From an uncultured Candidatus Nemicrothrix sp. (GTDB lineage: Bacteria; Actinomycetota; Acidimicrobiia; Acidimicrobiales; MedAcidi-G1): a DNA stretch of 64,000 nucleotides. The notes under the pieces were generated by a model that worked only from the letters and a program-made list of their open reading frames with translations, did not search any database and was not told the DNA's origin. Every line of letters starts with the position of its first letter. Positions within the stretch are counted from its first letter, which is position 1. A program made the position numbers and the translations under genes. The stretch is taken from positions 1 through 64,000 of the forward strand of contig CAJXKL010000007.1 in the NCBI GenBank assembly GCA_913055915.1, written 5' to 3'. Below, one piece after another: positions 13,283-39,915 of the stretch.

Positions 13283-14227
13283 ATGGGTAACCTCTGTGAA
13301 GGCCGAGTAGCGGTAGTGACCGGTGCAGGCCGGGGCATCGGACGCGAACACGCGCTGCTCCTGGCTGAGAACGGTGCAAAGGTCGTGGTGAACGACCTCG
13401 GAGGCGACGCCGCCGGATCGGGCACCGACCTGTCACCGGCTCAGGAAGTCGCTGGCGAGATAGAGGCCATGGGTGGCGAGGCCGTGGTAAACGGCGCCAA
13501 CGTCGCGGACTTCGACGCCGCAGGCACCATGGTTCAACAGGCCATCGACACCTGGGGTCGCCTCGACATTCTCGTTAACAACGCCGGGATCCTCCGGGAT
13601 CGTATGGTCTTTTCGATGTCTGAATCCGACTGGGACGCCGTGATCGATGTCCACCTGAAGGGCACCTTTGCTCCCGCCCACCACGCAGCCGTCCACTGGA
13701 GGGAAAAGGCGAAGTCGGGCGACTACGCCCCGGAGGAACTGTTCGGTCGGATCATCAACACGTCCTCCCCATCCGGCATCTACGGAAACGTCGGCCAGTG
13801 CAACTACGGCGCTGCCAAGGCAGGGATCGCCGCCTTCACGGTCATCAGCGCCATGGAACTCGTCCGGTACGGGGTGACGGTGAACTGCCTGGCCCCCGGC
13901 GCATTCACCCGGATGACGTCCGGCCTGGCCGGTTGGGAGTCCATGGACGAGGAAACCAGGGAGGCCATGAGCCCCCGCTGGATAGCAGTGCCCACCGTGT
14001 GGCTCTGCAGTGAGGCCGCCCAGAACGTGACCGGCCGGGTATTTGACGTGCATGGCAGCCAACTGGGCATAGCGGAGCAGTGGCATCTCGGACCGACCGC
14101 GGTCCAGCCCGACGACCCCGCTGACTTGACTGACGTGATGGCCGGTCTCATGGCCGACGCTCAGCTCAACTCCGACATGCAGGGGATGCCGGCCGAGGGC
14201 CCGGGGCGACCAGGCCGGGGCTTGTAG
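13283..14227 (+). CDS. SDR family oxidoreductase (multifunctional-enzyme-2/HSD17B4-like)
   Basis: Short-chain dehydrogenase of 314 residues, longer than the classical 250. Cofactor motif TGAGRGIGREHALLLAENGA, then VVNDLGGD and LVNNAGILRD; catalytic Ser in NTSSPSG and Tyr/Lys in YGAAKAGI. The REHAL after the glycine motif, the DLGGD segment and the insertion before the serine (EKAKSGDYAPEELFGR) are typical of peroxisomal D-bifunctional-type 3-hydroxyacyl-CoA dehydrogenases. This fits the acyl-CoA dehydrogenase gene next door. ATG at 13283 has AGGAG about 11 bases upstream. Confidence 0.87.
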   Translation: MGNLCEGRVAVVTGAGRGIGREHALLLAENGAKVVVNDLGGDAAGSGTDLSPAQEVAGEIEAMGGEAVVNGANVADFDAAGTMVQQAIDTWGRLDILVNNAGILRDRMVFSMSESDWDAVIDVHLKGTFAPAHHAAVHWREKAKSGDYAPEELFGRIINTSSPSGIYGNVGQCNYGAAKAGIAAFTVISAMELVRYGVTVNCLAPGAFTRMTSGLAGWESMDEETREAMSPRWIAVPTVWLCSEAAQNVTGRVFDVHGSQLGIAEQWHLGPTAVQPDDPADLTDVMAGLMADAQLNSDMQGMPAEGPGRPGRGL

Positions 14228-14241
14228 GGGGCCAGCCCCCT
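14226..14241 (+). terminator. Hairpin immediately after the SDR stop codon
   Basis: AGGGGGC (14226-14232) and GCCCCCT (14235-14241) form a 7-bp inverted repeat that overlaps the stop codon, about 48 bases before the acyl-CoA dehydrogenase start. The closing two-base loop implies that 6 pairs with a 4-base loop is the realistic fold. It may modulate read-through. Confidence 0.5.
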
Positions 14242-14288
14242 GCTAGCGCCTGCCAGCAAACCCCACCAGCAGGCCATCCAGGACCACC

Positions 14289-26955: not shown

Positions 26956-27720
26956 TCAGGTCTCGCCGAGGTAGGCAGCCCTCATCTCGGGGTTGGCCAG
27001 CAGAGACTCAGCAGAGTCGTCCAGCACAACCATGCCGGTCTGGAGCACCCAACCGCGGTCAGCGATGGACAGGGCCATGTTGGCGTTCTGCTCAACCATG
27101 AACACCGCCATCCCCTCCTCGTTGATCTGCTGGATGAGGTCGAAGTTCTGCTGCACGAGGGCAGGAGCCAGGCCCATCGACGGCTCGTCCATCAACAGGA
27201 CCGTCGGCCTCGACATCAGAGCACGCCCAATGGCGACCATCTGCTGTTCACCACCGGAGAGGGTTCCGGCCTTCTGGGAGAGCCGCTCCTCAACCCGGGG
27301 AAAGAGTTCGAACACGTGCTGAAGGTCGGCCTCGATCCCGTCCCTGTCGCTGCGCAGGTAGGCGCCCAGAACGAGGTTCTCCTTGACGGTGAGCCTCTTG
27401 AACAGGCGACGATTCTCGGGAACCATCGTCACACCGTTCTCGACCCGGTAGCTGATGGGCTTGTTGTTGACCACCTCGCCGTTGAGTACCACGTCCCCTG
27501 AGGTCGGTACGACCATTCCCAGAAGCGTCTTGAGCGTGGTCGTCTTGCCACTGGCGTTTCCACCCAACAGGCACACGAGCTCGCCCGGGTAGATAGCCAG
27601 GTTCACGTCCTTGAGGATGTGGACGGCGCCGTAGTGGGTGTTCACGTCGCGGAACTCAAGCAGCGCCACGCGGTCGCCGTTACCGATCGGGGCCATGGTG
27701 GAATCGCCTCCCGCGCTCAT
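26956..27720 (-). CDS. livF: Branched-chain amino acid-type ABC transporter ATP-binding protein
   Basis: A 254-residue ATPase: Walker A LGGNASGKTTTLK (N in place of the common P-N-G order), Q-loop MVPENRRLFKRLTV, signature LSGGEQQMVAIGRALM, Walker B VLLMDEPSMGLAPA, H-loop-equivalent FMVEQNANMAL. Those final two motifs are LivF-specific. The ATG at 27720 overlaps the livG stop (ATGA), so upstream ORF sequence is discarded. Last gene of livHMGF. Substrates may be branched-chain amino acids, short amides, urea or other small molecules. Confidence 0.92.
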   Translation of the reverse strand: MSAGGDSTMAPIGNGDRVALLEFRDVNTHYGAVHILKDVNLAIYPGELVCLLGGNASGKTTTLKTLLGMVVPTSGDVVLNGEVVNNKPISYRVENGVTMVPENRRLFKRLTVKENLVLGAYLRSDRDGIEADLQHVFELFPRVEERLSQKAGTLSGGEQQMVAIGRALMSRPTVLLMDEPSMGLAPALVQQNFDLIQQINEEGMAVFMVEQNANMALSIADRGWVLQTGMVVLDDSAESLLANPEMRAAYLGET

Positions 27721-28505
27721 GCCTGATCCTCCGCCGGGCGTCCCAGGTAGGCCTCGACCACATCGGGGTTGGTCGACACCTCGTCGTAGGATCCCTGGGC
27801 GATCGGAACGCCGTGATCCAGCACGACAACCCGGTCCGAGACATCTCTGACCACGCGCATGTCGTGTTCGATCATGACAATCGTGAAACCCCATTCGGAC
27901 CGGAGGCGTCCGATGAGTGCCGTCAACTCGGCGGTCTCCATGGGGTTCATTCCGGCAACCGGCTCGTCGAGCAGCATCAGGCGGGGCTGGGTAGCCATGG
28001 CCCGTGCAACCTCAAGGCGCCTCCTGTTGGCGTACGAGAGCACGAAGGCGGGCTGGTCGTATCGGTAGCCGACGAGGCGGGAACCAAAGAAGGCAAGGAC
28101 CTCCTTGGCCCGCTCCTCAATCTCCCGTTCCTCCTTCTTGAACGCCGACGTCTGGAGGAGGGCTCCAAGGACCAGCTGCGAGGTTCGGCAGTGCTGGGCG
28201 ACCATGATGTTTTCGAGCACGGTCATGTTGGGAAACAGCCGCACGTTCTGGAACGTACGTGCAATTCCCAGGCCGGTCACCTGGTGAGGGTCAAGGCCCA
28301 GGATCGACTCGCCGTCAAACAGGATATCTCCCTCAGTCGGGTCCACAAGACCGGTGATGGCATTGAAGAACGTGGTCTTGCCAGCACCGTTGGGACCGAT
28401 CACGCTGACGATCTCCCCCTCGTCGACGTGGAAGTTGAGGCCCGACAGGGCATCAAGGCCACCGAACGTGATCTTCAGGTCACGAATCTCCATGAGATGG
28501 CTCAT
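27717..28505 (-). CDS. livG: Branched-chain amino acid-type ABC transporter ATP-binding protein
   Basis: A 262-residue ATPase with Walker A GPNGAGKTTFFNAITG, Q-loop IARTFQNVRLFPNMTV, signature LSYANRRRLEVARAMA, Walker B LMLLDEPVAGMNP and H-loop IEHDM. The YANRR signature in place of LSGGQ-type is normal for LivG. ATGA overlaps join it to livM upstream and livF downstream. An internal ATG four codons in is an alternative start. Confidence 0.93.
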   Translation of the reverse strand: MSHLMEIRDLKITFGGLDALSGLNFHVDEGEIVSVIGPNGAGKTTFFNAITGLVDPTEGDILFDGESILGLDPHQVTGLGIARTFQNVRLFPNMTVLENIMVAQHCRTSQLVLGALLQTSAFKKEEREIEERAKEVLAFFGSRLVGYRYDQPAFVLSYANRRRLEVARAMATQPRLMLLDEPVAGMNPMETAELTALIGRLRSEWGFTIVMIEHDMRVVRDVSDRVVVLDHGVPIAQGSYDEVSTNPDVVEAYLGRPAEDQA

Positions 28506-30364
28506 GCTCCGCTCCCCTCGTGTCCCTCGGCTCCGCTGGCTTCAGCTGCATGCAGCTCTTCCTCGTGCTCCTCGCCCTCGTGCTCCTCGCCCTTCAGCCA
28601 GACATCCTGGAGGAACTCCTCCTGATGGAGTTCCTGGCTGCGCCGGGCGCTCGGGACAAGGCCCTCTGGCCGCTGGAGCATCATGAATACCAGCAGGGCG
28701 CCGTAGATCAACAACTTGAACGACTGGAACTCGTGGAGCAGGCCGGGCTGCCTGGGCCCACCAAGGACGCCGATCAGCACGAACGAACCCACGAGTACAC
28801 CTGCGATATTGCCCATTCCACCCACGATCACGACAACCAGGATGATTATCGAGACAAGGATCATAAAGCTGTTCGGGAACACCGAACCGACCTTTGCCAC
28901 GAGGATCGCACCACTGAACGAGGCCAGCACGGCGCCCACAACGAAAGCCAGAAGCTTGGCGTTGACGGTGTTGATCCCCATCGCCTCGGCGACCTTCTCG
29001 TCCTCGCGGATTGCCATCCAGGCCCTCCCGAGACGTGACGCCTGAAGGCGCCAGGATATGTAGATGGCTAGTGCGCAGAACACCAGCACCAGGTAGAACA
29101 CCGACCTCGGGTCGGTGCCCTTGATTGTCACAAACCCCAGATCTACGCCGGGAACGTTGGTAATCCCCTGCGCACCGCCGAAGTAGGGCTTCAACCAGTC
29201 GGACATGAACAGCAGGCGGATGATCTCACCGAAGCCGAGGGTCACGATCGCCAGGTAGTCGCCGCGCATCCTGATCACGGGCGCACCGATTATCAGGCCA
29301 ACCAGGCCGGCAAAGACGACGACGATCACGAGGGTGATGGCGAAGTGCATTTCCGGGGCGAAGAACGGAGAGTCGGGCGATGTCAACACGGCCGTCGTGT
29401 AGCCACCGACGGCGAAGAAGGCCACGTACCCGAGATCGAGGATTCCGGCAAGGCCGACCACGATGTTGAGACCCAGGGCCAACAGCAGGAACAACCCGAC
29501 GTTCGCCAGCAGTTCGTTCATGATCGTGCCCAGGAACAGGGGCAGGATGATGGTCAGGAGGGCTACAAGCAGGAAGAGGATCATGGATGCCCGCTTGCGC
29601 TCGGGGCCCTGCAGTTCGCCGTAATTGGCCTTTGCGGCCTTGAACCTGCCCCTGGTCAGCATCGACACGACCCCGATGATGACCACCAGAACGATCGACC
29701 AGACAACGGTGACCCCGCCCCGGTTGGCGTAGATGGAGTCTGTCAGGGATTGCAGGCCGAACCCCTCAGAAAGGTCTGCGATTGCCCCCTCCAGTACAGC
29801 GATACCAAGCAGGCCGAAGGCGCCATAGGACACGACCCGTCTGACACCGGCTGGAATCACATGAATCGATGAGCCCAGCAGGCCAAGGACGCTGCACGCA
29901 GCGATCCACGCCACGACCCCGAAACCGAGACCACGCCCGTAGTTGAGCAACTCCAGAAGTTGCGGACTCCAGTTGACCAGCGGGTCACGGAGGTTGAAGG
30001 TGTCGAGGGCGACTATGAACACGGCCATACCGAAACCGCCGAGCAGGCCTGTCAGGGCACCGGCCAGGAGGTCGCGGCCTCCGGGCTCAGGCGATTCCAC
30101 ACCCTCCAGCTCGACGTGCCTGGACACTACGAATCCCAGCACCAGGGGAATCCAGAGCAACGACAGGTAACCGAGGCTCAGGACAGGATGGATGAGGATG
30201 CGCCGGTCCAGTCCAACCGGCATGCCGATCAACGACACCAGGACAAGAGCAAGGGTGCAGAGACCGCCCCACTTGCCAACATTTCGCCAGTCCTGGTCGG
30301 CCACGGGAGCGCGGTAACCGGACCTGGAAGACGGTGCGGACGAAGAGGTCATGGTGGCGCTCAT
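28502..30364 (-). CDS. livM: Branched-chain amino acid-type ABC transporter permease, extended
   Basis: A 620-residue permease. Residues from about 270 onward are the LivM core (LGLNIVVGLAGILDLGYVAFFAVGGYTTAVL, VIRMRGDYLAIVTLGFGEIIRL, GRAWMAIREDEKVAEAMGIN, VVVGGMGNIAGVLVG). About 260 residues before that contain six or so further membrane segments. The last 40 residues are a Glu/His-rich hydrophilic tail (GEEHEGEEHEEELHAAE). Ordinary LivM proteins are 300-425 residues. It overlaps livH by four bases and livG by four bases. Confidence 0.9.
   Translation of the reverse strand: MSATMTSSSAPSSRSGYRAPVADQDWRNVGKWGGLCTLALVLVSLIGMPVGLDRRILIHPVLSLGYLSLLWIPLVLGFVVSRHVELEGVESPEPGGRDLLAGALTGLLGGFGMAVFIVALDTFNLRDPLVNWSPQLLELLNYGRGLGFGVVAWIAACSVLGLLGSSIHVIPAGVRRVVSYGAFGLLGIAVLEGAIADLSEGFGLQSLTDSIYANRGGVTVVWSIVLVVIIGVVSMLTRGRFKAAKANYGELQGPERKRASMILFLLVALLTIILPLFLGTIMNELLANVGLFLLLALGLNIVVGLAGILDLGYVAFFAVGGYTTAVLTSPDSPFFAPEMHFAITLVIVVVFAGLVGLIIGAPVIRMRGDYLAIVTLGFGEIIRLLFMSDWLKPYFGGAQGITNVPGVDLGFVTIKGTDPRSVFYLVLVFCALAIYISWRLQASRLGRAWMAIREDEKVAEAMGINTVNAKLLAFVVGAVLASFSGAILVAKVGSVFPNSFMILVSIIILVVVIVGGMGNIAGVLVGSFVLIGVLGGPRQPGLLHEFQSFKLLIYGALLVFMMLQRPEGLVPSARRSQELHQEEFLQDVWLKGEEHEGEEHEEELHAAEASGAEGHEGSGA
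28562..28591 (-). repeat. Perfect 15-bp tandem duplication in the livM tail
   Basis: CTCGTGCTCCTCGCC is present at 28562-28576 and again at 28577-28591 (plus strand). On the coding strand it encodes GEEHE twice and enlarges the His/Glu-rich C-terminal tail of LivM. Confidence 0.9.
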
Positions 30365-31488
30365 GCCCTGTCCTCGGCCGAGAGTTGCTCACCGAACAGG
30401 CCGGACGGCTTGAACAGGAGCACCAACACCAGCACGGTGAACGCCACAGCGTCCTTCAGCTGGGACACGCCGGGAACCCCGAGCGGCTCGAGGATCACCA
30501 GCGGAGCGATCGATTCAGCTGACCCCAGGGAGATTCCACCGATCATGGCGCCGGGCAGGTTTCCGATGCCGCCGACGACAGCTGCCGTGAAGGCCTTGAT
30601 GCCGGGCAGGAAGCCGGTCATGTGGGTGACGCTGCGGAACAGCAAACCCCAGAGGATTCCAGCGATCCCGGCCATGGCCCCACCGACGGCGAAGGTGGTG
30701 ACGATCGTGCGGTTCACGTTGATGCCCATGAGGGCGGCGATCTCTTTGTCCTCGGCCACGGCTCGCATCGCCTTGCCGGTCCTGGTGCGTTCAACCAGGT
30801 ACCAGAGGCCCGCCATGGACATGGCTGCCACGAGCAGCACAAGCAACTTCGTGCCGGCAATCTCGAAGGTCAGGATGGACCTCTGCTTGGATAGCCACTG
30901 TGGCAGCTGCGGGTAACTCTTGGTTGAAGGCCCGAATACACCCATGACCGCATTCTGGATGAAGAAGGAAACGCCAATGGAGGTGATGAGGGGAATGAGA
31001 CGTGGTGACTCCCGCAGCGGACGGTATGCGACCCGTTCCATCAGAACAGCTGTGAGCGTGGAGACCATAATCGCAAGGACGATGATGATGACGAGGGACA
31101 GGAGGAAATTGCTCTCCCATAGGCCGTTGGCCGAGAACTTGTCGGATGCAATGAACCCCGTCATGGCTCCGGCCATGAAGACCTCGCCGTGGGCGAAGTT
31201 GATGAAACCCAGTACCCCGTAGACCATTGAGTAGCCGAGGGCGATGAGCCCGTACATGGCGCCCTGCGAGAGCCCGGACATGAGCAGGCCCTTGAACTGG
31301 TCCCCCGTCAGGCCCACGGCGTCGGGGTTACGCCACCGGGCGAAGGGATTGTCAGGCGCAACCTGTTGGGCAATGAACGCCAGAACGCCGATGACGATCA
31401 GGCTCACGAGGAAGATCCTTATGAGGGTGAGGAACCTGTCGACCTTGGAAACCTGACGGGCCGACTTCCTCTCGATCGTCGCTGTCAA
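30361..31488 (-). CDS. livH: Branched-chain amino acid-type ABC transporter permease
   Basis: A 375-residue permease. After an N-terminal membrane anchor (about residues 22-42) the core shows LSQGAMYGLIALGYSMVYGVLGFINFAHGE, RPLRESPRLIPLITSIGVSFF, GKAMRAVAEDKEIAALMGINVNR, and FTAAVVGGIGNLPGAMIGG, all LivH hallmarks. The ORF has no ATG or GTG in a sensible place; TTG at 31488 with AGGGGG about nine bases upstream is the best start. No binding-protein gene lies beside the cluster, so the substrate must be judged from elsewhere in the genome. Confidence 0.88.
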   Translation of the reverse strand: MTATIERKSARQVSKVDRFLTLIRIFLVSLIVIGVLAFIAQQVAPDNPFARWRNPDAVGLTGDQFKGLLMSGLSQGAMYGLIALGYSMVYGVLGFINFAHGEVFMAGAMTGFIASDKFSANGLWESNFLLSLVIIIVLAIMVSTLTAVLMERVAYRPLRESPRLIPLITSIGVSFFIQNAVMGVFGPSTKSYPQLPQWLSKQRSILTFEIAGTKLLVLLVAAMSMAGLWYLVERTRTGKAMRAVAEDKEIAALMGINVNRTIVTTFAVGGAMAGIAGILWGLLFRSVTHMTGFLPGIKAFTAAVVGGIGNLPGAMIGGISLGSAESIAPLVILEPLGVPGVSQLKDAVAFTVLVLVLLFKPSGLFGEQLSAEDRA

Positions 31489-31700
31489 CCAAGTACCCCC
31501 TTCAAAGTGACAAGTAGTCCCATCAGGGCCCCGGCCGACTACACAATCGTCGCCGCGCACCAGAGGGGCACGATCACAGACGACTGGTGGGCAGACCCCC
31601 TGATGCTGCGAGAGGCACCGTAGCGCGCCCGAGCCGGTGGTCCAACACCCTGACACGCCCCATCATCCCTGCCTGAACTACCACGGATAACATCCCGGAC
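31489..31700. other. Divergent intergenic region livH / aminotransferase-like operon
   Basis: This 212-base spacer must contain both promoters. On the plus strand TAACAT at 31688-31693 ends 7 bases before the ATG at 31701, predicting a leaderless message. On the minus strand only the livH ribosome-binding site is evident. No recognisable riboswitch or repeat was found. Confidence 0.45.
31688..31693 (+). promoter_or_regulatory. -10 element for a leaderless aminotransferase-like transcript
   Basis: TAACAT followed by 7 bases and then ATG (31701), with no Shine-Dalgarno sequence. The spacing places the transcription start on or next to the A of ATG. Confidence 0.5.
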
Positions 31701-32639
31701 ATGATGCAGAGCGACCTGCCGGTCAGTGGCCGCAGCACCCATCAGGCACTTCCAGATCCGCGAAACGCCACCGTCCAGATCTACATCAACGGCATCTTCC
31801 ATCCCAGGCCTGAGGCGAAGGTCTCGGTGTTTGACAGCGGCTTTCTGGTGGGCGACGGGGTCTGGGAGGGAATCCGGCTCCACAATGGCTGCTTCGCCTT
31901 CATCGATCGCCACCTGGATCGCCTCTTTGCCGGGCTGGCTGCAATCGACCTCGACATGAGGATGACCCGTGCCGAAGTCACCGATGCGCTCAGGTCCACC
32001 ATCGATCAAAACGACATGCACGACTCGGTGCACGTGCGCCTGATGGTCACGAGGGGCGACAAGACAACGCCCTCCCAGCATCCGACCAACGTCATTGACG
32101 GACCCAACGTCGTCATCATCGCCGAGCACAAGACTGCCGACCCGGCCGTGTCCGATCAGGGGGTCTCACTGTTCACGGCGACCGTCCGCCGACCACCACC
32201 CGACACCCTCGACCAGCGCCTCAACTCACACTCCAAGCTGCACGAGGTGATCGCCCTGATCCAGGCGACGCGGGCCGGAGCCGACGAGGCACTCATGCTG
32301 GACCCCACGGGAGCAGTCGCCACCTGCAATGCCACCAACTTCTTCGTGGTCAGGTCAGGTGAACTCTGGACCTCGACCGGCCACTACAACCTGCACGGCA
32401 TCACCCGCGCCGTGGTTCTCGAGGAGGCGGCAGCAGCGGGCATCGCCACTAGGGAGCAGCCCTTCTCCCTGACCGACGTCTACTCAGCCGACGAGGCCTT
32501 CGTCACCGGAACATTTGGTGGCCTGACCCCTGTCTCCGAGGTCGACGGGCGCACCATCGGTACCGGAACCCGTGGCCCGGTGACCTCACGCCTGAACGAC
32601 CTCTACCGCAGGGCAGTGGCCGCCTCGGTAGGGCTGTGA
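31701..32639 (+). CDS. Class IV aminotransferase-like protein (BCAT/DAAT fold), atypical active site
   Basis: A 312-residue member of the class IV (ilvE/D-amino acid aminotransferase) fold: VSVFDSGFLVGDGVWEGIR, IDRHLDRLFAGL, HVRLMVTRG, DEALMLDPTGAV, HGITRAVVLEEA and TGTFGGLTPVSEVDG. In the segment where these enzymes carry the PLP lysine followed by xxNYLxN, I read LNSHSKLHEVIAL. By my alignment Asn175 occupies the lysine position and Lys179 lies four residues later. The glutamate of the usual SExxxxNIF motif is Cys209 (TCNATNFF). It may be altered in chemistry. It is 13 bases upstream of a sulfotransferase-like gene; plants have a fusion of the two domains. Confidence 0.85.
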   Translation: MMQSDLPVSGRSTHQALPDPRNATVQIYINGIFHPRPEAKVSVFDSGFLVGDGVWEGIRLHNGCFAFIDRHLDRLFAGLAAIDLDMRMTRAEVTDALRSTIDQNDMHDSVHVRLMVTRGDKTTPSQHPTNVIDGPNVVIIAEHKTADPAVSDQGVSLFTATVRRPPPDTLDQRLNSHSKLHEVIALIQATRAGADEALMLDPTGAVATCNATNFFVVRSGELWTSTGHYNLHGITRAVVLEEAAAAGIATREQPFSLTDVYSADEAFVTGTFGGLTPVSEVDGRTIGTGTRGPVTSRLNDLYRRAVAASVGL

Positions 32640-32652
32640 ACCAGACGGCGCC

Positions 32653-33372
32653 GTGACGCTACGCATCAACTGCTGGTCGGGGCCGAGGAACATCTCCACG
32701 GCCCTCATGTACTCCTTCAGGCAACGATCCGACACGCTCGTATTCGATGAGCCCATCTACGCCCATTACCTGAGGGCCAGCGGAAGGGAGCATCCGGGCC
32801 GGGCGGAGACCCTCGCCAGTCAGGACCCCGATGGCGATGCCGTGGTTCGCAACCTGATCCTCGGCCCCCACCCCAGCCCAATCGTCTTCCTCAAGATGAT
32901 GAGCCACCACCTCATTGACCTGGACACGACATTCCTCCGCAGATGCCGAAACATCCTCCTGATACGCGACCCACACCACGTGCTGCGCTCGCTGAGCGTA
33001 AACATCCCCGATGTCAACCTCGGCGACACGGGCCTTGAATCCCAGATCGACCTTCTGGACTCGATCCTCAACGCGGACGGAGACCCGATCGTCGTGGACT
33101 CTGCAGCGCTGCTTGCCGATCCTGAGGGCATGCTCCGAAAGATGTGCTCGGTGCTGGAGATCAGTTTCGAGGACGCCATGTTGTCGTGGCCATCGGGGCC
33201 CAAGCCCGAGGACGGGACATGGGCGGTCCACTGGTATGCGAATGCCCACGCCTCCACCGGATTCCTTGCCGGGATTCCGAGCAACGACCCCCTACCCACC
33301 CACCTGGGACCCGTACTGGAAGCAGCCCGACCCCTCTACGAGAGGCTCCTGGAACACTCCCTTTCCCCCTGA
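32653..33372 (+). CDS. Sulfotransferase-like P-loop protein
   Basis: A 239-residue protein starting at GTG. The N-terminal INCWSGPRNISTALMYSF is a PAPS-binding-type loop (WSGPRNxST), followed by VFDEPIYAHYLR, the helix FLKMMSHHL, ILLIRDPHHVLRSL (3'-phosphate-binding-type Arg/Ser strand) and WPSGPKPEDGTWAVHWYANAHASTGF. The same string of motifs occurs in the N-terminal half of plant branched-chain-aminotransferase-like proteins, whose C-terminal half matches the preceding gene. No biochemical activity is known to me. It lies between the aminotransferase-like gene and the selenoprotein gene. Confidence 0.78.
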   Translation: MTLRINCWSGPRNISTALMYSFRQRSDTLVFDEPIYAHYLRASGREHPGRAETLASQDPDGDAVVRNLILGPHPSPIVFLKMMSHHLIDLDTTFLRRCRNILLIRDPHHVLRSLSVNIPDVNLGDTGLESQIDLLDSILNADGDPIVVDSAALLADPEGMLRKMCSVLEISFEDAMLSWPSGPKPEDGTWAVHWYANAHASTGFLAGIPSNDPLPTHLGPVLEAARPLYERLLEHSLSP

Positions 33373-33400
33373 CCCGCCGAGGTCACGCTGGTAGGTGGCC

Positions 33401-33982
33401 ATGCGCGAGACTCGTTCCATGGCCTGGATTGAGACGGTTCCGGACGGTGAATGGGAGTCAGGTGGAGGACACCTCGCCGATATGTATGGCAGGGTCGTCG
33501 ACCCGGAGAACGGACGGGTCGACCATGTCATGGCCGTCCACTCACTCAACCCACAGAGCCTCGCCGCCCACCAGGGCCTCTACGAGTCGGCAATGGCCGG
33601 GACAGCTTCACTACGCAAGGTCGAGAGGGAGATGATCGCCCTGGTCGTCAGCGTCCAGAATGAGTGCCACTACTGAACAACCCACCACCGGCGCGGTCTG
33701 CGCCGACTGCTTCGCGACGACGACCTGGCTGCCGCCATCGAGTCCAATTGGACCACGGCGGACATCTCACCAGAGCGGCGGGCAATGCTCGAGATGGCTG
33801 CAAAGTTGACACGGGCACCGGGAGCCATGCTCGAATCCGATGTCAGCCAACTCCGCGACGTCGGGTTCAGCGACCGCGACATCCTCGACATCGTCGAGGT
33901 GACCGCCTACTACGCCTACGCCAACCGGATCGTCGACGGCCTCGGCGTGGGGCTCGAGGCCTGGATCCCAGAGGGCTCCTGA
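33401..33982 (+). CDS. Selenocysteine-containing peroxidase-related (AhpD/CMD-like) protein
   Basis: One 193-residue reading frame interrupted only by TGA at 33674-33676 (codon 92). Upstream reads AWIETVP, DHVMAVHSLNPQSLAAH and EREMIALVVSVQNECHY; downstream continues in the same frame as TTHHRRGLRRLLRDDDLAA, MLEMAAKLTRAPGAM, VGFSDRDILDIVEVTAYYAYANRIVDGLG. This is the whole peroxidase-related enzyme family (AhpD fold) whose active site is NxCxYCxxHH. Here the second cysteine is UGA, giving C89-x-x-U92, with H95/H96 following. A SECIS-like hairpin follows the UGA. An ordinary gene caller would report two broken genes. Expected role: thiol peroxidase or redox partner. Third gene of an operon with the aminotransferase-like and sulfotransferase-like genes. 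Confidence 0.85.
33689..33705 (+). ncRNA. Bacterial SECIS-like element
   Basis: Twelve bases after the UGA a perfect 6-bp stem CGGCGC (33689-33694) / GCGCCG (33700-33705) closes a GGUCU loop (33695-33699). Loop G-G-U lies 18 bases after the UGA, inside the window required for SelB-dependent recoding, and the string GGTCTGC equals the apical part of the E. coli fdhF SECIS. Confidence 0.8.
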
Positions 33983-33991
33983 ACACGATTC

Positions 33992-34858
33992 CTAGAGAAC
34001 GGTCCCCAGGTCCTGCTGCTCAGCATTCGTGAGGGCCATCACTGCAGCCGCAATATCCTGTGACGCGATACCCACCGACTTGAAGAGGGTGAAGGGCTGG
34101 CCCGATGGTGCCACCCGCCCACCGATCAGGTCAGCCATGTCCGCATCGGGTTCACGGTCCACCCTCAACAGGTCTCCAGCCTCAACGGCAGCGGCCTCCC
34201 GGTCGTCGACGACCACAAACGCCTGCTCGACCACCTCGCCCGGGATCTCGACCATCTCCGGGGTGAAGGCGCCGACAGCGTTGACGTGCGTGCCCGGCCT
34301 CAGGGAGGAGGAATCGAACAAGGGGGCCCTGGATGGCGTAGCGGTACTCACCACGTCTGCCCTGGCCACCGCCTCGTCTGCATCAGGCACGACCTGCCCT
34401 CCGACCGAGTCGGCCAGGGCCCTGGCCGAAGCCTCGGTACGACTCCAGACGAGCACCTCCCGGATGGGCCGTACCGCCCGAACGGCAGCCACCTGGTCCG
34501 CAGCCATCGCCCCCGCTCCGAGCATGGCAAGAACACAGGCATCCGGGGCGGCCATCCTGTCCGTGGCCAGCCCCGGTGCCGCCGCTGTGCGTATCGCCGA
34601 GAGCGTGGGGCCGTCGACCAGCCCGAGCGGGTGTCCCGACTCGTCAAACACGGCGACGATTCCGGCAGGGTCCCCGGGAACCGATGAGACCACCTTCACC
34701 CCTGTGTACGAGTCAAGGCGCCCGGGCATGAACAGGGAGACCCCGAGGAGCATCCGGTTCGGCGCCTCGCGGTCACCCCCGAAGGCATGGACCATCGACT
34801 CGATGGCATCTGACATCGGCAGTGCGGCACGCACCTCATCCGGGTTCAGGTAGCGCAT
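33992..34858 (-). CDS. Ornithine cyclodeaminase/mu-crystallin-family reductase (probable delta-1-pyrroline-2-carboxylate reductase)
   Basis: A 288-residue NAD(P)-binding protein: MRYLNPDEVRAALPMSDAIESM at the start, GVKVVSSVPGDPAG, GPTLSAIRTAAAPGLAT, cofactor loop LAMLGAGAMAADQV, SRTEASARALADS, VSTATPSRAPLFDSSSLRPGTHVNAVGAF, and the C-terminal TLFKSVGIASQDIAAA. Family members include ornithine cyclodeaminase, ketimine reductase and Pyr2C reductase. Here it directly follows (2-base gap) the two aconitase-X genes, the arrangement known for cis-3-hydroxy-L-proline catabolism, so the reductase that turns delta-1-pyrroline-2-carboxylate into L-proline is the best guess. Confidence 0.82.
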   Translation of the reverse strand: MRYLNPDEVRAALPMSDAIESMVHAFGGDREAPNRMLLGVSLFMPGRLDSYTGVKVVSSVPGDPAGIVAVFDESGHPLGLVDGPTLSAIRTAAAPGLATDRMAAPDACVLAMLGAGAMAADQVAAVRAVRPIREVLVWSRTEASARALADSVGGQVVPDADEAVARADVVSTATPSRAPLFDSSSLRPGTHVNAVGAFTPEMVEIPGEVVEQAFVVVDDREAAAVEAGDLLRVDREPDADMADLIGGRVAPSGQPFTLFKSVGIASQDIAAAVMALTNAEQQDLGTVL

Positions 34859-34860
34859 TG

Positions 34861-35313
34861 TCAGCCTCCGGTCGTGTTGTCCGGATCGTCGTCGACGGAC
34901 CCGGATTGTCGGTGCAACGACCCATCCTCCCCCACGGCCACCGTCTCACCCGTCACCAGGGACGAATAGGTGGCCTCGTCGAGTACAACGACGGGCAGCG
35001 ACCGCCCGTACAACTCGCCGGCCACTATCGACCCGAGGGAGAGGATCTCGTCTGGTTCCAGGACGAGTATCGCCTCTGGGGCCGAGCCGCTTCGGATGGC
35101 CTCGAGGAGCACCGAACTGGAGGAACTGGATCCACGCCCCGAGGGCATGGCAATGACCCGCCCGGAGACCGTGCAGCCGTGCTGCGGATGGTGGTGGTCG
35201 ACTATCTCCCCCGTTCGGGGATCGACACCACCCCAGAAGCTGAGGGATTCATCGAGGCAGAGCACCTCTCCTGAAGCCGAGCCAGCCACCAACACAACCG
35301 GTTGTTCAGACAC
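34861..35313 (-). CDS. Aconitase X swivel (small) subunit
   Basis: A 150-residue DUF126-type swivelling-domain protein. Motifs: SFWGGVDPRTGEIVDHHHPQHG, VSGRVIAMPSGRGSSSSSSVLLEAI, ILVLEPDEILSLGSIVAGELYGRSLPVV. Serine-rich GRGSSSSSS is the phosphate/carboxylate-binding loop of the swivel. GTG at 35313 overlaps the end of the large-subunit gene by eight bases. With the large subunit it forms a heteromeric AcnX hydro-lyase (type II); type I enzymes have both domains in one chain. Confidence 0.82.
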   Translation of the reverse strand: MSEQPVVLVAGSASGEVLCLDESLSFWGGVDPRTGEIVDHHHPQHGCTVSGRVIAMPSGRGSSSSSSVLLEAIRSGSAPEAILVLEPDEILSLGSIVAGELYGRSLPVVVLDEATYSSLVTGETVAVGEDGSLHRQSGSVDDDPDNTTGG

Positions 35314-36568
35314 CTGACCACACCCTCTCATCGAGAAGCACCTTGCCGGCCACGGCCGACTCGACGCACTCGGAGGTACCGGCGAACACGACATCGACAC
35401 CCAGGTTGCCCGGTGCGTACCAGGCCCATTTGGCAGAGTCCGTCATCGCCGTGCCCGTCGTGTCAGCAAGTATCGCTGACACGTAGGTGCAGGTGTCGAC
35501 CACAAGGGCCACACCGGCGGACCGCAGCAGGTCGGCCCATCCCCGAAGCTCCAACTCAGCGAGAACCGAGCGGCCCGTTGAAACGTAGAAGTCCACGTCG
35601 GGGTGGACCCGCCTACCCGTCAGGAGGGCCACAACGACCTGGAACTCGTCGATCGAGTAGTGGGGTGTTCCGAGGCAGACGCTTGACAGCGCTGACCCAG
35701 AGACAGTGCAGAGCTGGTCGCGAGAAGCCCGCAGGTCGCTGGTTCTCACCTCCACGACCTCATGTGGATCCCTCCCACCCATGGCCGATTCGAGGGTTGG
35801 CGCCTCCGGTGTGCTGCCAACGGCGTGGAACATCCCGATGCTGCCGGCCGTTGCCGCACCTGCACCCAGGGCCCTCAGTCTCACCTCGCTGAGGGCCGTC
35901 GGCAGGCCTTCGATCACGGGAACCCGGGAACCCGATGCTGCTCCGACAACCGTCCCGAGCAGCGGATACACCTGGTCCAGGTCGAGCAGGTCGGGCGACA
36001 CGTCAAGGAGTCGAAAGAGGACTGTGGCACGACGGTTATCATCGAGGTGCAGGCCGGCGGCAGGTACCCGGCCCGTGATGGCGGCGGAGATGTCGATCAG
36101 GTCGCCGTAGCGGGCGGTGCGGGCACCCAGCACCGAGTTGGCAAAGACGATGGCATTCGACTCGGCCCAGGCCACCTGTTCGCCAAACGACGGGCGATTC
36201 TCCAGGTGGTACGGCGCACACGTCCATGTCGGCTGACAGCCCATCTCCTCGTACATCCCGGCCATCCGCCGAGCAGCCTCACCCTCAGCCTCATCCCCGC
36301 GGTACAGCTCGGGATGCAACAGGTCCAGAGAGGACACGTTGAGCGTGGTTGGTACGGCGACCGAGGCACCGCCCTCGACGAGGCGCCCGGCAAAGTCCAG
36401 CCCCGACTGCCCGTGGTAGAGACACGAATCAACGTGGGCGCCCGTGATGTCGAGCAGGTGGTCGACCCCCATCGATTCAGCCAGGCGCACGACGATACGC
36501 ATGGCCAACTGGGCAGCCGGGCCGGCATCTCCGGCTAGCCGTTGCCTGTCCTCGACGCTCAGGTCCAC
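35306..36568 (-). CDS. Aconitase X catalytic (large) subunit, probable cis-3-hydroxy-L-proline dehydratase
   Basis: A 420-residue DUF521 AcnX protein. Conserved runs: LDITGAHVDSCLYHGQSGLDFAGRLV, VPTTLNVSSLDLLHPELY, PTWTCAPYHLENRPSFGEQVAWAESNAIVFANSVLGART, AAITGRVPAAGLHLDDNRRA, PVIEGLP, CLGTPHYSIDEF, VDTCTYVSAI. Characterised AcnX proteins are cis-3-hydroxy-L-proline dehydratases in bacteria and mevalonate-5-phosphate dehydratases in archaea. The adjacent OCD-family reductase supports the hydroxyproline role. GTG at 36568 is chosen because TACGCT lies six bases upstream, a leaderless -10; reading upstream to 36625 is possible but poor. Confidence 0.85.
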   Translation of the reverse strand: MDLSVEDRQRLAGDAGPAAQLAMRIVVRLAESMGVDHLLDITGAHVDSCLYHGQSGLDFAGRLVEGGASVAVPTTLNVSSLDLLHPELYRGDEAEGEAARRMAGMYEEMGCQPTWTCAPYHLENRPSFGEQVAWAESNAIVFANSVLGARTARYGDLIDISAAITGRVPAAGLHLDDNRRATVLFRLLDVSPDLLDLDQVYPLLGTVVGAASGSRVPVIEGLPTALSEVRLRALGAGAATAGSIGMFHAVGSTPEAPTLESAMGGRDPHEVVEVRTSDLRASRDQLCTVSGSALSSVCLGTPHYSIDEFQVVVALLTGRRVHPDVDFYVSTGRSVLAELELRGWADLLRSAGVALVVDTCTYVSAILADTTGTAMTDSAKWAWYAPGNLGVDVVFAGTSECVESAVAGKVLLDERVWSGV

Positions 36569-36574
36569 CCGTTG

Positions 36575-36580
36575 AGCGTA
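36575..36580 (-). promoter_or_regulatory. -10 element for a leaderless aconitase X transcript
   Basis: On the minus strand TACGCT is followed by six bases and GTG (36568). No Shine-Dalgarno sequence precedes that GTG. Confidence 0.45.
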
Positions 36581-36631
36581 GGTCCTGGGTGACCACCGAC
36601 CCCAACCACCGCGTGGCGGCACCAACCAGCC

Positions 36632-37065: not shown

Positions 37066-39720
37066 CTAGTCCCTGGCGAGCACGGCGTGGGCGGCCGCCA
37101 GGCGTGTCGCGGGCAGGCGGGCGGGTGAGCACGACAGGTAGTCCACCCCAGCGGCCAGCAGGCGTGGAATCGAGAGCGGATCGCCAGCGTGCTCGCCGCA
37201 GACCCCGACCTTGAGGTCCGGGCGGGCTCTCCGCCCGCGAATTACGGCCAGGTCGACGAGCTCCCCCACGGCCGCTTCATCGAAGTGTTCAAAGGGATTG
37301 TGGTCGAGCAGCCCACGGTCCAGATAGAGGTCCATGAACCGGCCCCCGACATCGTCGCGGGAAAAGCCGAAGGTCAGCTGGGTCAGGTCGTTGCTGCCAA
37401 CTGAGAAGAAGTCAGCGTGCACCGCCAGGTCACCGGCTAGAAGGGCCGCCCTGGGGGTCTCGATCATGGTGCCAACCCGGGGTGGCTCACCCATTCCGAC
37501 ATCTACTGCCGCCTCCCTGACCCAGCCCACGGCTAGGGCCAACTCTGGGCCGGAGACCGTCAGCGGGATCATGACCTCGACCAGGGGGTTTCCTCCGGCC
37601 GCACGTCGGGTCATTACCGCTGAGAACAGGGCCGTCGCCTGCATCCTGTAGAGGCCGGGACGGAGGTGCGCAAGCCGTACTCCCCGGGTTCCCATCATCG
37701 GGTTGACCTCGGTCCAGTAGCGGGCCGACTTGAGCAGCGCCTGTCCCTCCGGGTCAAGTTCACCCCTCGCCTCGGCGACCACCAGGTCTCCGATATCCGG
37801 AAGGAACTCATGCAGGGGCGGGTCCAGGAGCCTCACCGTCACCGGCAGGCCATCCATCGCCTCGAGGATGCCCTCGAAGTCCGCCTGCTGGACAGCTCCA
37901 AGCTGTTCCAGGGCATCTGCTTCGACCTCGGCGGTCTCGGCCAGGATCATCGCCCTGACGAGGGACAGCCGGTCGGAGCTGAGGAACATGTGCTCCGTTC
38001 GACACAGGCCGATGCCGACAGCACCGGCCTCTCGGGCAGCTGCTGCGTCCTCAGCTGTATCCGCGTTCGCCCTGACCCCGAGGGTTCCGGAGGCGATCTC
38101 GTCGGCCCAGTCCAGGATCGAGTCCAACTCGGGCGGCACCACCGACTCGACGACTCCCCGGTCACCCAGGGTCACCGAACCGGTGGTTCCGTCAATTGAG
38201 ATCGTGTCACCCTCGGACACGACGATGTCTCCGACGCGGAAATGGTCGTCTGCGACCTCGACCTGAACGGCACCGCAGACACAGGGAGTTCCCCACCCGC
38301 GTGCGACGACGGCAGCGTGACTGACCAGGCCGCCATGGGAGGTCAGGATTCCCTCGACGACCGCCATGGCCGCCACATCGTCAGGTGAGGTCGCCCGCCT
38401 CACGAGGATCACCTGTTCACCACGGTCCACCGCATCGATTGCGCCCTCGGTGGTCATGTAGGCGCGCCCGACCGCTGCTCCGGGAGATGCCCCGAGCCCG
38501 TGGGCGACCTCGGGGATGTCTGTCTCTGCGAAACCCACGTGCAGCACCTGTGACAGGTGGTCGGAGGTGATACGGACAACCGCCTCGTCCCTCGTGAGAG
38601 CGACACCCGGATCCTCCACAAGTTGGCTGGCGATCCGGAGAGCAGCGGCACCGGTGCGCTTGCCGACACGACACTGGAGGATGTGCAGGTGGCCCTGCTC
38701 AACGGTGAACTCGACATCGCACATGTCCCGGTAATGACCCTCCAGCAGTTCAAGTGCCCGGTCCAGCTCAGCGCCCTGCTCGGGCATGAGCCTGCTGAAA
38801 TCGGCAATCGGGAGGGTCGAGTGGGTACCCGACACGACGTCCTCTCCCTGGGCATTCGGGAGGTAGTCGCCGGTGGGATGGTCGTCGCCGGTTGCCGGAT
38901 CACGCGTGAACACGACGCCACTACCCGAGGAATCATCACGGTTGCCAAAGACCATGGCCTGGATGGTGCATGCCGTTCCGATGTCTCCGTCGATGCCCTC
39001 GTGTCTCCTGTACTCGACTGCCCGCTCACCCATCCAGGAGTCGAACACGGCCGCGACCGCTGTACGCAGTTGTTCGAACGGGTCGTCGGGAAGAGTCGCC
39101 CCGGGGTGGTCCGTCACGATCTGGTGCAGGTCGGCGATCAGGTCTGAGAGGGCTCCGGGGTCCAGGTCGGACTCGTGGCCGACACCGGCCTTCCTGACAG
39201 CCGATGCCACCACCTCAGGGAGGTCGGAGATGACACCCAGGACTACCGCGGCATAGGACTGTATGAACCGGCGATGGGAGTCGAGGGCGAAGCGTTCGTC
39301 GGTGGCTGCGGCCAGGCCCCTTGCCGTCTCGTCGTTGAGGCCCAGGTTCAGGACGGTGTCCATCATTCCCGGCATGGAGACTGCCGCCCCTGACCTGACG
39401 CTCAGCAGCAGGGGGTTGCCGGGGTCCCCCAGACGGCGTCCAGTGCGTTGCTCAAGGCCTGCCACTGCCACACGAAGACCCTCGTCCAGGTCGAGTGGCC
39501 AGCCCTTCGACAGGTATGCACGGCACACCTCGGTGGTGATCGTGAAGGCAGGTGGCACCGGGAGCGAGAGCGTCGTGGCCATGTCAGCCAGCGAAGCGCC
39601 CTTGCCACCCAGAAGAGCCCTCTTGCCGTCGGGCGCAAGGCTGTCGGCCTCGTCGATGAACACGATTGACGGTGCCACAGTGCCGCCTGGGTCGCCGTTG
39701 GCAGACCCACCTTCGCCCAT
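37066..39720 (-). CDS. ppdK: Pyruvate, phosphate dikinase
   Basis: An 884-residue enzyme interconverting pyruvate + ATP + Pi and PEP + AMP + PPi. N-terminal ATP-grasp domain (LGGKGASLADM, VPPAFTIT, RSGAAVSMPGMMDTVLNLGLND, GSGVVFTRDPATG), central phosphohistidine domain with the swivelling histidine in GGLVSHAAVVARGWGTPCV, and C-terminal PEP/pyruvate barrel (GIGLCRTEHMF, NPMMGTRGVRL, FFSVGSNDLTQLTFGFSRDD, CGEHAGDP). The ORF reads upstream through the tRNA gene, so the true start is ATG 39720, seven bases from a TACGTT -10 with no ribosome-binding site. Supports C3/C4 balance with PEP carboxylase further along. Confidence 0.94.
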   Translation of the reverse strand: MGEGGSANGDPGGTVAPSIVFIDEADSLAPDGKRALLGGKGASLADMATTLSLPVPPAFTITTEVCRAYLSKGWPLDLDEGLRVAVAGLEQRTGRRLGDPGNPLLLSVRSGAAVSMPGMMDTVLNLGLNDETARGLAAATDERFALDSHRRFIQSYAAVVLGVISDLPEVVASAVRKAGVGHESDLDPGALSDLIADLHQIVTDHPGATLPDDPFEQLRTAVAAVFDSWMGERAVEYRRHEGIDGDIGTACTIQAMVFGNRDDSSGSGVVFTRDPATGDDHPTGDYLPNAQGEDVVSGTHSTLPIADFSRLMPEQGAELDRALELLEGHYRDMCDVEFTVEQGHLHILQCRVGKRTGAAALRIASQLVEDPGVALTRDEAVVRITSDHLSQVLHVGFAETDIPEVAHGLGASPGAAVGRAYMTTEGAIDAVDRGEQVILVRRATSPDDVAAMAVVEGILTSHGGLVSHAAVVARGWGTPCVCGAVQVEVADDHFRVGDIVVSEGDTISIDGTTGSVTLGDRGVVESVVPPELDSILDWADEIASGTLGVRANADTAEDAAAAREAGAVGIGLCRTEHMFLSSDRLSLVRAMILAETAEVEADALEQLGAVQQADFEGILEAMDGLPVTVRLLDPPLHEFLPDIGDLVVAEARGELDPEGQALLKSARYWTEVNPMMGTRGVRLAHLRPGLYRMQATALFSAVMTRRAAGGNPLVEVMIPLTVSGPELALAVGWVREAAVDVGMGEPPRVGTMIETPRAALLAGDLAVHADFFSVGSNDLTQLTFGFSRDDVGGRFMDLYLDRGLLDHNPFEHFDEAAVGELVDLAVIRGRRARPDLKVGVCGEHAGDPLSIPRLLAAGVDYLSCSPARLPATRLAAAHAVLARD

Positions 39721-39727
39721 GCGGCGG

Positions 39728-39733
39728 AACGTA
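39728..39733 (-). promoter_or_regulatory. -10 element for a leaderless ppdK transcript
   Basis: TACGTT on the minus strand, seven bases before the ATG at 39720 and located between the tRNA-Leu gene and ppdK. Confidence 0.5.
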
Positions 39734-39768
39734 GCAGACCAGTACCGGGGTCGGTGGCCTCGAGGCAG

Positions 39769-39854
39769 TGCCCGGGGAGTGACTCGAACACTCACGCCGT
39801 CGAAACGGCGGCGGGTTTTAAGCCCGCTGCGTCTACCAGTTCCGCCACCCGGGC
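39769..39854 (-). tRNA. tRNA-Leu (anticodon TAA)
   Basis: Class II tRNA of 86 bases. Acceptor arms GCCCGGG / CCCGGGC pair perfectly with A as discriminator; anticodon stem GCGGG-CTTAAAA-CCCGC gives anticodon TAA; a long variable arm GCCGT-TTC-ACGGC-type hairpin and T-arm GAGTG-TTCGAGT-CACTC are present. The 3' CCA is not encoded. It reads UUA/UUG leucine codons. Confidence 0.95.
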
Positions 39855-39915
39855 GTGCCACCAACGCTACACACAGCGAGAGCTGCCGGCCCATGAGACG
39901 GCGCCACTGGCCTGA

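Follow-up and report, generated by a model that had tools for sequence, protein, structure and literature searches.

A lysine-less aminotransferase relative paired with a PAPS-type sulfotransferase, and a neighbouring AhpD-like selenoprotein, in Acidimicrobiia

Three genes in one interval

Three consecutive genes on the plus strand of the window (the whole stretch of 64,000 nucleotides analysed here) encode a class IV aminotransferase-like protein, a PAPS-type sulfotransferase and an AhpD-like selenoprotein, which raises the question of whether they constitute a single pathway or two units that have come to lie side by side. The original prediction favoured the former, namely, an uncharacterised sulfur/amine pathway with its own redox protein, transcribed from one leaderless promoter. 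We consider it more probable, at roughly 60%, that the interval comprises two units, a conserved aminotransferase-like/sulfotransferase pair and a separate selenoprotein neighbour. The window belongs to a 2.1-Mb draft genome that is 94% complete, and its named relatives are metagenome bins of Acidimicrobiia, many of them marine. The first gene, AT (31701-32639, +), encodes 312 aa, and the second, ST (32653-33372, +), starts with GTG and encodes a 239-aa member of Sulfotransfer_5; the AhpD-like CxxU selenoprotein occupies 33419-33982 (+). Profile matches indicate that all three frames are real, lie on the plus strand and have the identities first described. The 13-base gap between AT and ST is likewise as predicted, whereas the second gap, given as 28 bases, holds only if the selenoprotein starts at 33401. 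Its homologues begin at the conserved ATG at 33419 (MAWIET...), making a gap of 46 more likely. An Rfam search of the three-gene unit gave no relevant match.

AT lacks the catalytic lysine of its class

AT matches PF01063 (1.8e-41, gathering score passed) and shares family and fold with the class IV branched-chain and D-amino acid aminotransferases (e.g. PDB 5cm0). In this class, a lysine forms the Schiff base with PLP and a glutamate contacts PLP N1. Both residues are present in these enzymes, but both are replaced in AT: Asn175 aligns with the catalytic Lys of the branched-chain aminotransferase 5cm0 and Thr208 with the Glu of its SEG motif. The active site had been predicted to be non-standard, and the alignment and the homologues bear this out, adding the loss of Glu to that of Lys. 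AT is 54% identical to an aminotransferase-like protein from Variovorax paradoxus (7z79; 9j32 is its N174K mutant), in which Asn likewise takes the place of Lys (N174, corresponding to Asn175 of AT) and Glu is absent from the PLP-N1 position; a literature search on 7z79 yielded nothing useful. Foldseek matched the AT model to 9j32 at 5.7e-29, the model being of low confidence (pLDDT 67) and serving only for naming the relatives of AT. Asn occupies the Lys position in all N-type homologues, including plasmid-borne proteobacterial ones, within the motif N-x-H-S-[KR]. In five loci of other families (L152-L156), where the gene order is ST-AT, the lost Lys is replaced by His and Glu is kept. Judged by sequence, these His-type, Glu-retaining proteins are a second subtype of the pair.

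The loss of both Lys and Glu throughout the N-type family could mean that AT is a pseudo-aminotransferase that partners ST by binding a ligand or in a regulatory role, without catalysis. This is unlikely, however, because invariance extends to many further residues of the fold and the H-type retains Glu, which suggests retained chemistry. Counting against the preferred reading of AT-ST as a joint system, none of the proteobacterial Lys-less relatives examined has an ST next to it, implying that AT can act without ST. In this respect, the plasmid-borne proteobacterial relatives examined, a set that does not include the Variovorax gene itself, differ from AT. Several of these plasmid genes (L097, L102, L103, L126 and L127) lie beside or near a gene of the chloride-channel family, often together with an amino-acid ABC transporter and a ProC-like reductase.

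ST has the fold and motifs of a PAPS-type sulfotransferase

The description of ST as a PAPS-loop sulfotransferase-like protein is upheld by its family, predicted fold and motifs. It matches PF19798 (Sulfotransfer_5) at 3.7e-49, and its predicted fold (model pLDDT 76) is that of a PAPS sulfotransferase, closest to 4gox (Z 14.0, 209 residues, rmsd 3.8) and then to 4gbm (Z 13.3). A phmmer search of PDB with the single ST sequence returned chance matches only, and a profile of the family was needed to find 4gox (2e-5). The nearest solved folds, 4gox (olefin synthase), 4gbm (CurM) and human TPST, have in common with ST the fold, the P-loop and the R...S motif; however, ST is only ~15% identical to the solved sulfotransferases and, unlike them, is tied to an AT-like partner gene. 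The P-loop WSGPRNxST (P11-R12-N13-x-S15-T16) and the R105...S113 motif are invariant in an alignment of 15 sequences, and both are retained in the sequences of distant loci. ST thus appears to carry the 5'-phosphosulfate loop and the 3'-phosphate motif of PAPS sulfotransferases. The genome also encodes an APS kinase (G000:C17:45609-46064), as would be required for PAPS supply. The ST relatives found on plasmids are only distantly similar, and the one whose surroundings were inspected, from Dolichospermum, has no AT neighbour. A TGA seemingly located inside ST of two genomes (G149 and G084) proved to be an ordinary stop. In one further genome (G145, L107 1572-3902, -), a sulfatase-like gene follows ST by ~40 bases on the same strand; such a neighbour of a sulfotransferase might be a clue that the substrate is sulfated.

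The third gene encodes a selenoprotein of a known kind

The third protein matches TIGR01926 at 2.5e-42 (144.7 bits versus a cut-off of 81.8). Its frame contains a UGA (33674..33676, +) read as Sec in a Cys-x-x-Sec motif (ECHYUTTHH), and a bacterial SECIS-type hairpin, CGGCGC-GGUCU-GCGCCG (33689..33705, +), starts 12 nt past the UGA. The same frame with an in-frame TGA is found in 27 out of 198 genomes of the order, at 57-99% identity, and the TGA is conserved in 34 distinct sequences. Across these 34 sequences the hairpin covaries: 93.6% of cells are paired, four of the six pairs are changed on both sides and the GGUCU loop is invariant, and no shuffled or slid version equals it. Contig C5 of the genome carries tRNA-Sec (anticodon TCA), SelA and SelB in close proximity. 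SelA is present in all 27 genomes with TGA-containing AhpD versus 118 of the 198 overall, although related genomes are not independent and this test is indicative. Sec incorporation at the UGA is therefore well supported by the CxxU motif, the SECIS element and the Sec machinery, in agreement with the predicted Sec-dependent thiol-type protein. A pseudogene, with the UGA acting as a plain stop or arising from a sequencing error, can be practically dismissed as an explanation: the conserved TGA, the covarying hairpin and the Sec machinery contradict it, and we found no point in its favour. The protein is probably a thiol peroxidase or a disulfide-reducing enzyme. Knowledge of AhpD-like CxxU selenoproteins goes back to 2005, and they are described in the Sargasso Sea and GOS surveys (PMC1088965, PMC2398784). 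Like the protein of the window, they are of the COG2128/TIGR01926 type, marine, and have CxxU with a SECIS element directly after the UGA; nothing essential differs, and only the placement behind AT-ST is particular to the window. In two loci, the Sec form is accompanied in tandem by an AhpD paralogue (L054 979-1422 and L062 2159-2587) in which SGYW replaces CHYU and both active-site thiol positions are lost.

AT and ST form a conserved pair

AT and ST are adjacent on the same strand in 61 distinct loci (67 were listed, six of them fetched twice), which were sampled by ST similarity, so that AT without ST, as in proteobacteria, is not counted among them. The median gap is ~26 nt; nearly all gaps are shorter than 120 bases and five are between 350 and 2800. 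Among the 67 listed loci, 62 have the order AT-ST and 5 the order ST-AT, and both orders occur across the phylum. The distance matrices of the two proteins are correlated (Mantel r 0.79; 0/2000 permutations). Moreover, AT is found near every ST homologue of at least ~39% identity whose surroundings are readable. In 15 phylum-wide loci from other families and classes, the pair stands alone, without the genes that surround it in the window, and the unit of conservation is therefore AT-ST, an uncharacterised two-protein system. To this extent, the original view of an uncharacterised unit is borne out, and our literature search found no function for the AT-ST pair. In plants, branched-chain-aminotransferase-like proteins carry a fused sulfotransferase-like domain, presumably with the two domains in the ST-AT order; a literature search for them by locus name returned nothing useful.

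The selenoprotein is probably a separate neighbour

Does the selenoprotein belong to this unit? The window and ten relatives (L078-L084, L086, L087 and L090) carry the complete trio, down to ~65% ST identity, so AhpD is far from being absent beside the pair in all close relatives. Furthermore, AT-ST and Sec-containing AhpD co-occur in 18 genomes of the order sample versus ~3 expected. Both observations favour one sulfur/amine pathway of three genes, the redox protein being specific to it, and the co-occurrence leaves room for a functional link, although shared ancestry could explain it. By contrast, AhpD is missing beside AT-ST in 6 out of 16 close relatives (L085, L088, L089 and L091-L093), where aconitase X directly follows ST; a TGA-containing AhpD orthologue is present elsewhere in five of these six genomes, and the search of the sixth found none. 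Other genera of the family have AhpD and aconitase X arranged tail to tail, with AT-ST at a different location. The trio is thus limited to one marine lineage, and AhpD does not adjoin AT-ST in other genera or classes. An early impression that the adjacency is confined to one genus was overturned by a wider survey of genome contigs.

The upstream regions point in the same direction. A -10 element, TAACAT (31688..31693, +), is located 7 nt before the start codon of AT, as in a leaderless promoter, and TANNNT is found 5-8 nt upstream of the AT start in 35 out of 39 homologues (shuffled mean 1.35, maximum 6). A sigma-70 scan detected no promoter, and the leaderless TANNNT type emerged from comparison of the homologues. 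AhpD, in turn, is preceded by the -10-like GAGACT (33407..33412, +), 6 nt before its conserved start. The looser pattern NANNNT occurs 5-8 nt upstream of the AhpD start in 28 of 36 homologues (shuffled mean 8, maximum 14), and GAGACT is also present in genomes that have AhpD away from AT-ST; the relocated gene keeps its TGA, hairpin and promoter-like element. AhpD is thus likely to have a candidate leaderless promoter of its own. The promoter predicted upstream of AT therefore stands, but its sharing by all three genes is doubtful, as the upstream sequence suggests a separate start site for AhpD. Given its limitation to one lineage, its absence beside AT-ST in six of 16 close relatives, its relocation and its own promoter-like element, we regard a single three-gene pathway with its own redox protein as improbable. 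In the preferred two-unit reading, AT and ST would be transcribed together from the leaderless promoter upstream of AT, and the selenoprotein would be part of the same catabolic island rather than a fixed part of AT-ST.

An amino-acid catabolism island surrounds the genes

The trio is surrounded by a divergent branched-chain-type ABC transporter, LivF-LivG-LivM-LivH (26956..31656, -; ORFs named from sequence), on the side of AT, an OCD/mu-crystallin family reductase (33992..34858, -; PF02423, 2.1e-43), a two-subunit aconitase X (34861..36625, -; PF01989 and PF04412, overlapping frames 34861-35400 and 35306-36625), an FAD oxidoreductase, an SDR and a threonine-aldolase-like protein. The order of the Liv genes is conserved in relatives, which add a TPP enzyme, PutA and a Liv-type binding protein to the island. 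In one relative (G149), a single 24-kb contig contains aconitase X, OCD, AhpD, SDR, the TPP enzyme, Liv genes, the start of PutA and AT-ST. The best NCBIfam model for the OCD gene is pyrroline-2-carboxylate reductase, with a score under the cut-off of that model, and the two separate aconitase X subunits score 392 and 153.7 bits against a 700-bit cut-off set for the fused enzyme. Proline-type catabolism is a sensible guess for the island, and stays a guess because the models score below their equivalog cut-offs. In proteobacteria, the neighbourhood of the Lys-less AT includes amino-acid ABC transporters and, in several cases, imine reductases of the ProC or OCD type, which independently hints at similar metabolism. 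Since AT-ST outside the order is without proline-type neighbours, its link to the island may be lineage-specific. Elsewhere in the window, a tRNA-Leu (39768-39854, -) overlaps the upstream end of a long PPDK frame (37066-39894), the real start of which is probably downstream of the listed ATG, and ARAGORN reports a tRNA-like gene with undetermined anticodon at 14190-14285, probably spurious or degenerate.

Possible function of the pair

As a tentative proposal, with the odds somewhat against it, ST would sulfate a hydroxylated metabolite of the amino-acid type, which AT, lacking Lys, would bind or process by chemistry other than ordinary transamination, the pathway being tied in this lineage to the import and breakdown of proline-like compounds.

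A more specific mechanism, sulfation-activated elimination, is less likely. Here, ST would convert a hydroxyl of an amino-acid-like substrate to a sulfate ester, from which the Lys-less AT would expel sulfate via PLP/PMP in a ColD-like manner, a nearby His serving as acid/base. The OLS and CurM sulfotransferases, which are the nearest solved folds to ST, sulfate a hydroxyl ahead of elimination, although the substrate cannot be carried over from fold similarity. The ST-AT type has His at 175 and keeps Glu, consistent with such a mechanism; in the type found in the window, however, Glu is lost as well (Thr208), which would weaken the use of PLP. The idea was inspired by ColD, which lacks Lys yet performs elimination and belongs to another aminotransferase fold class. 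ColD (GDP-4-keto-6-deoxymannose 3-dehydratase) is an aminotransferase relative in which Lys is replaced by His, as in the ST-AT loci, and it catalyses C-O elimination (PMC8987622). Its substrate is a sugar, and the analogy is mechanistic only. We accordingly give little credence to AT-ST being a two-enzyme sulfate-activation module, in which a hydroxylated amino acid would receive a sulfate leaving group from ST and lose it again through a PLP/PMP enzyme that has no lysine.

Implications

The novelty of the locus lies in the AT-ST pair; the selenoprotein is of a known kind and provides a clear AhpD-like CxxU example with a covarying SECIS element. AT-ST is a widely conserved pair worth study, and it is directly testable because structures exist of a close relative of AT (7z79) and of its N-to-K mutant (9j32). 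If the sulfate-activation idea were true, sulfate-activated elimination would be a new chemistry for the class IV fold, distributed across a bacterial phylum and possibly in plants.
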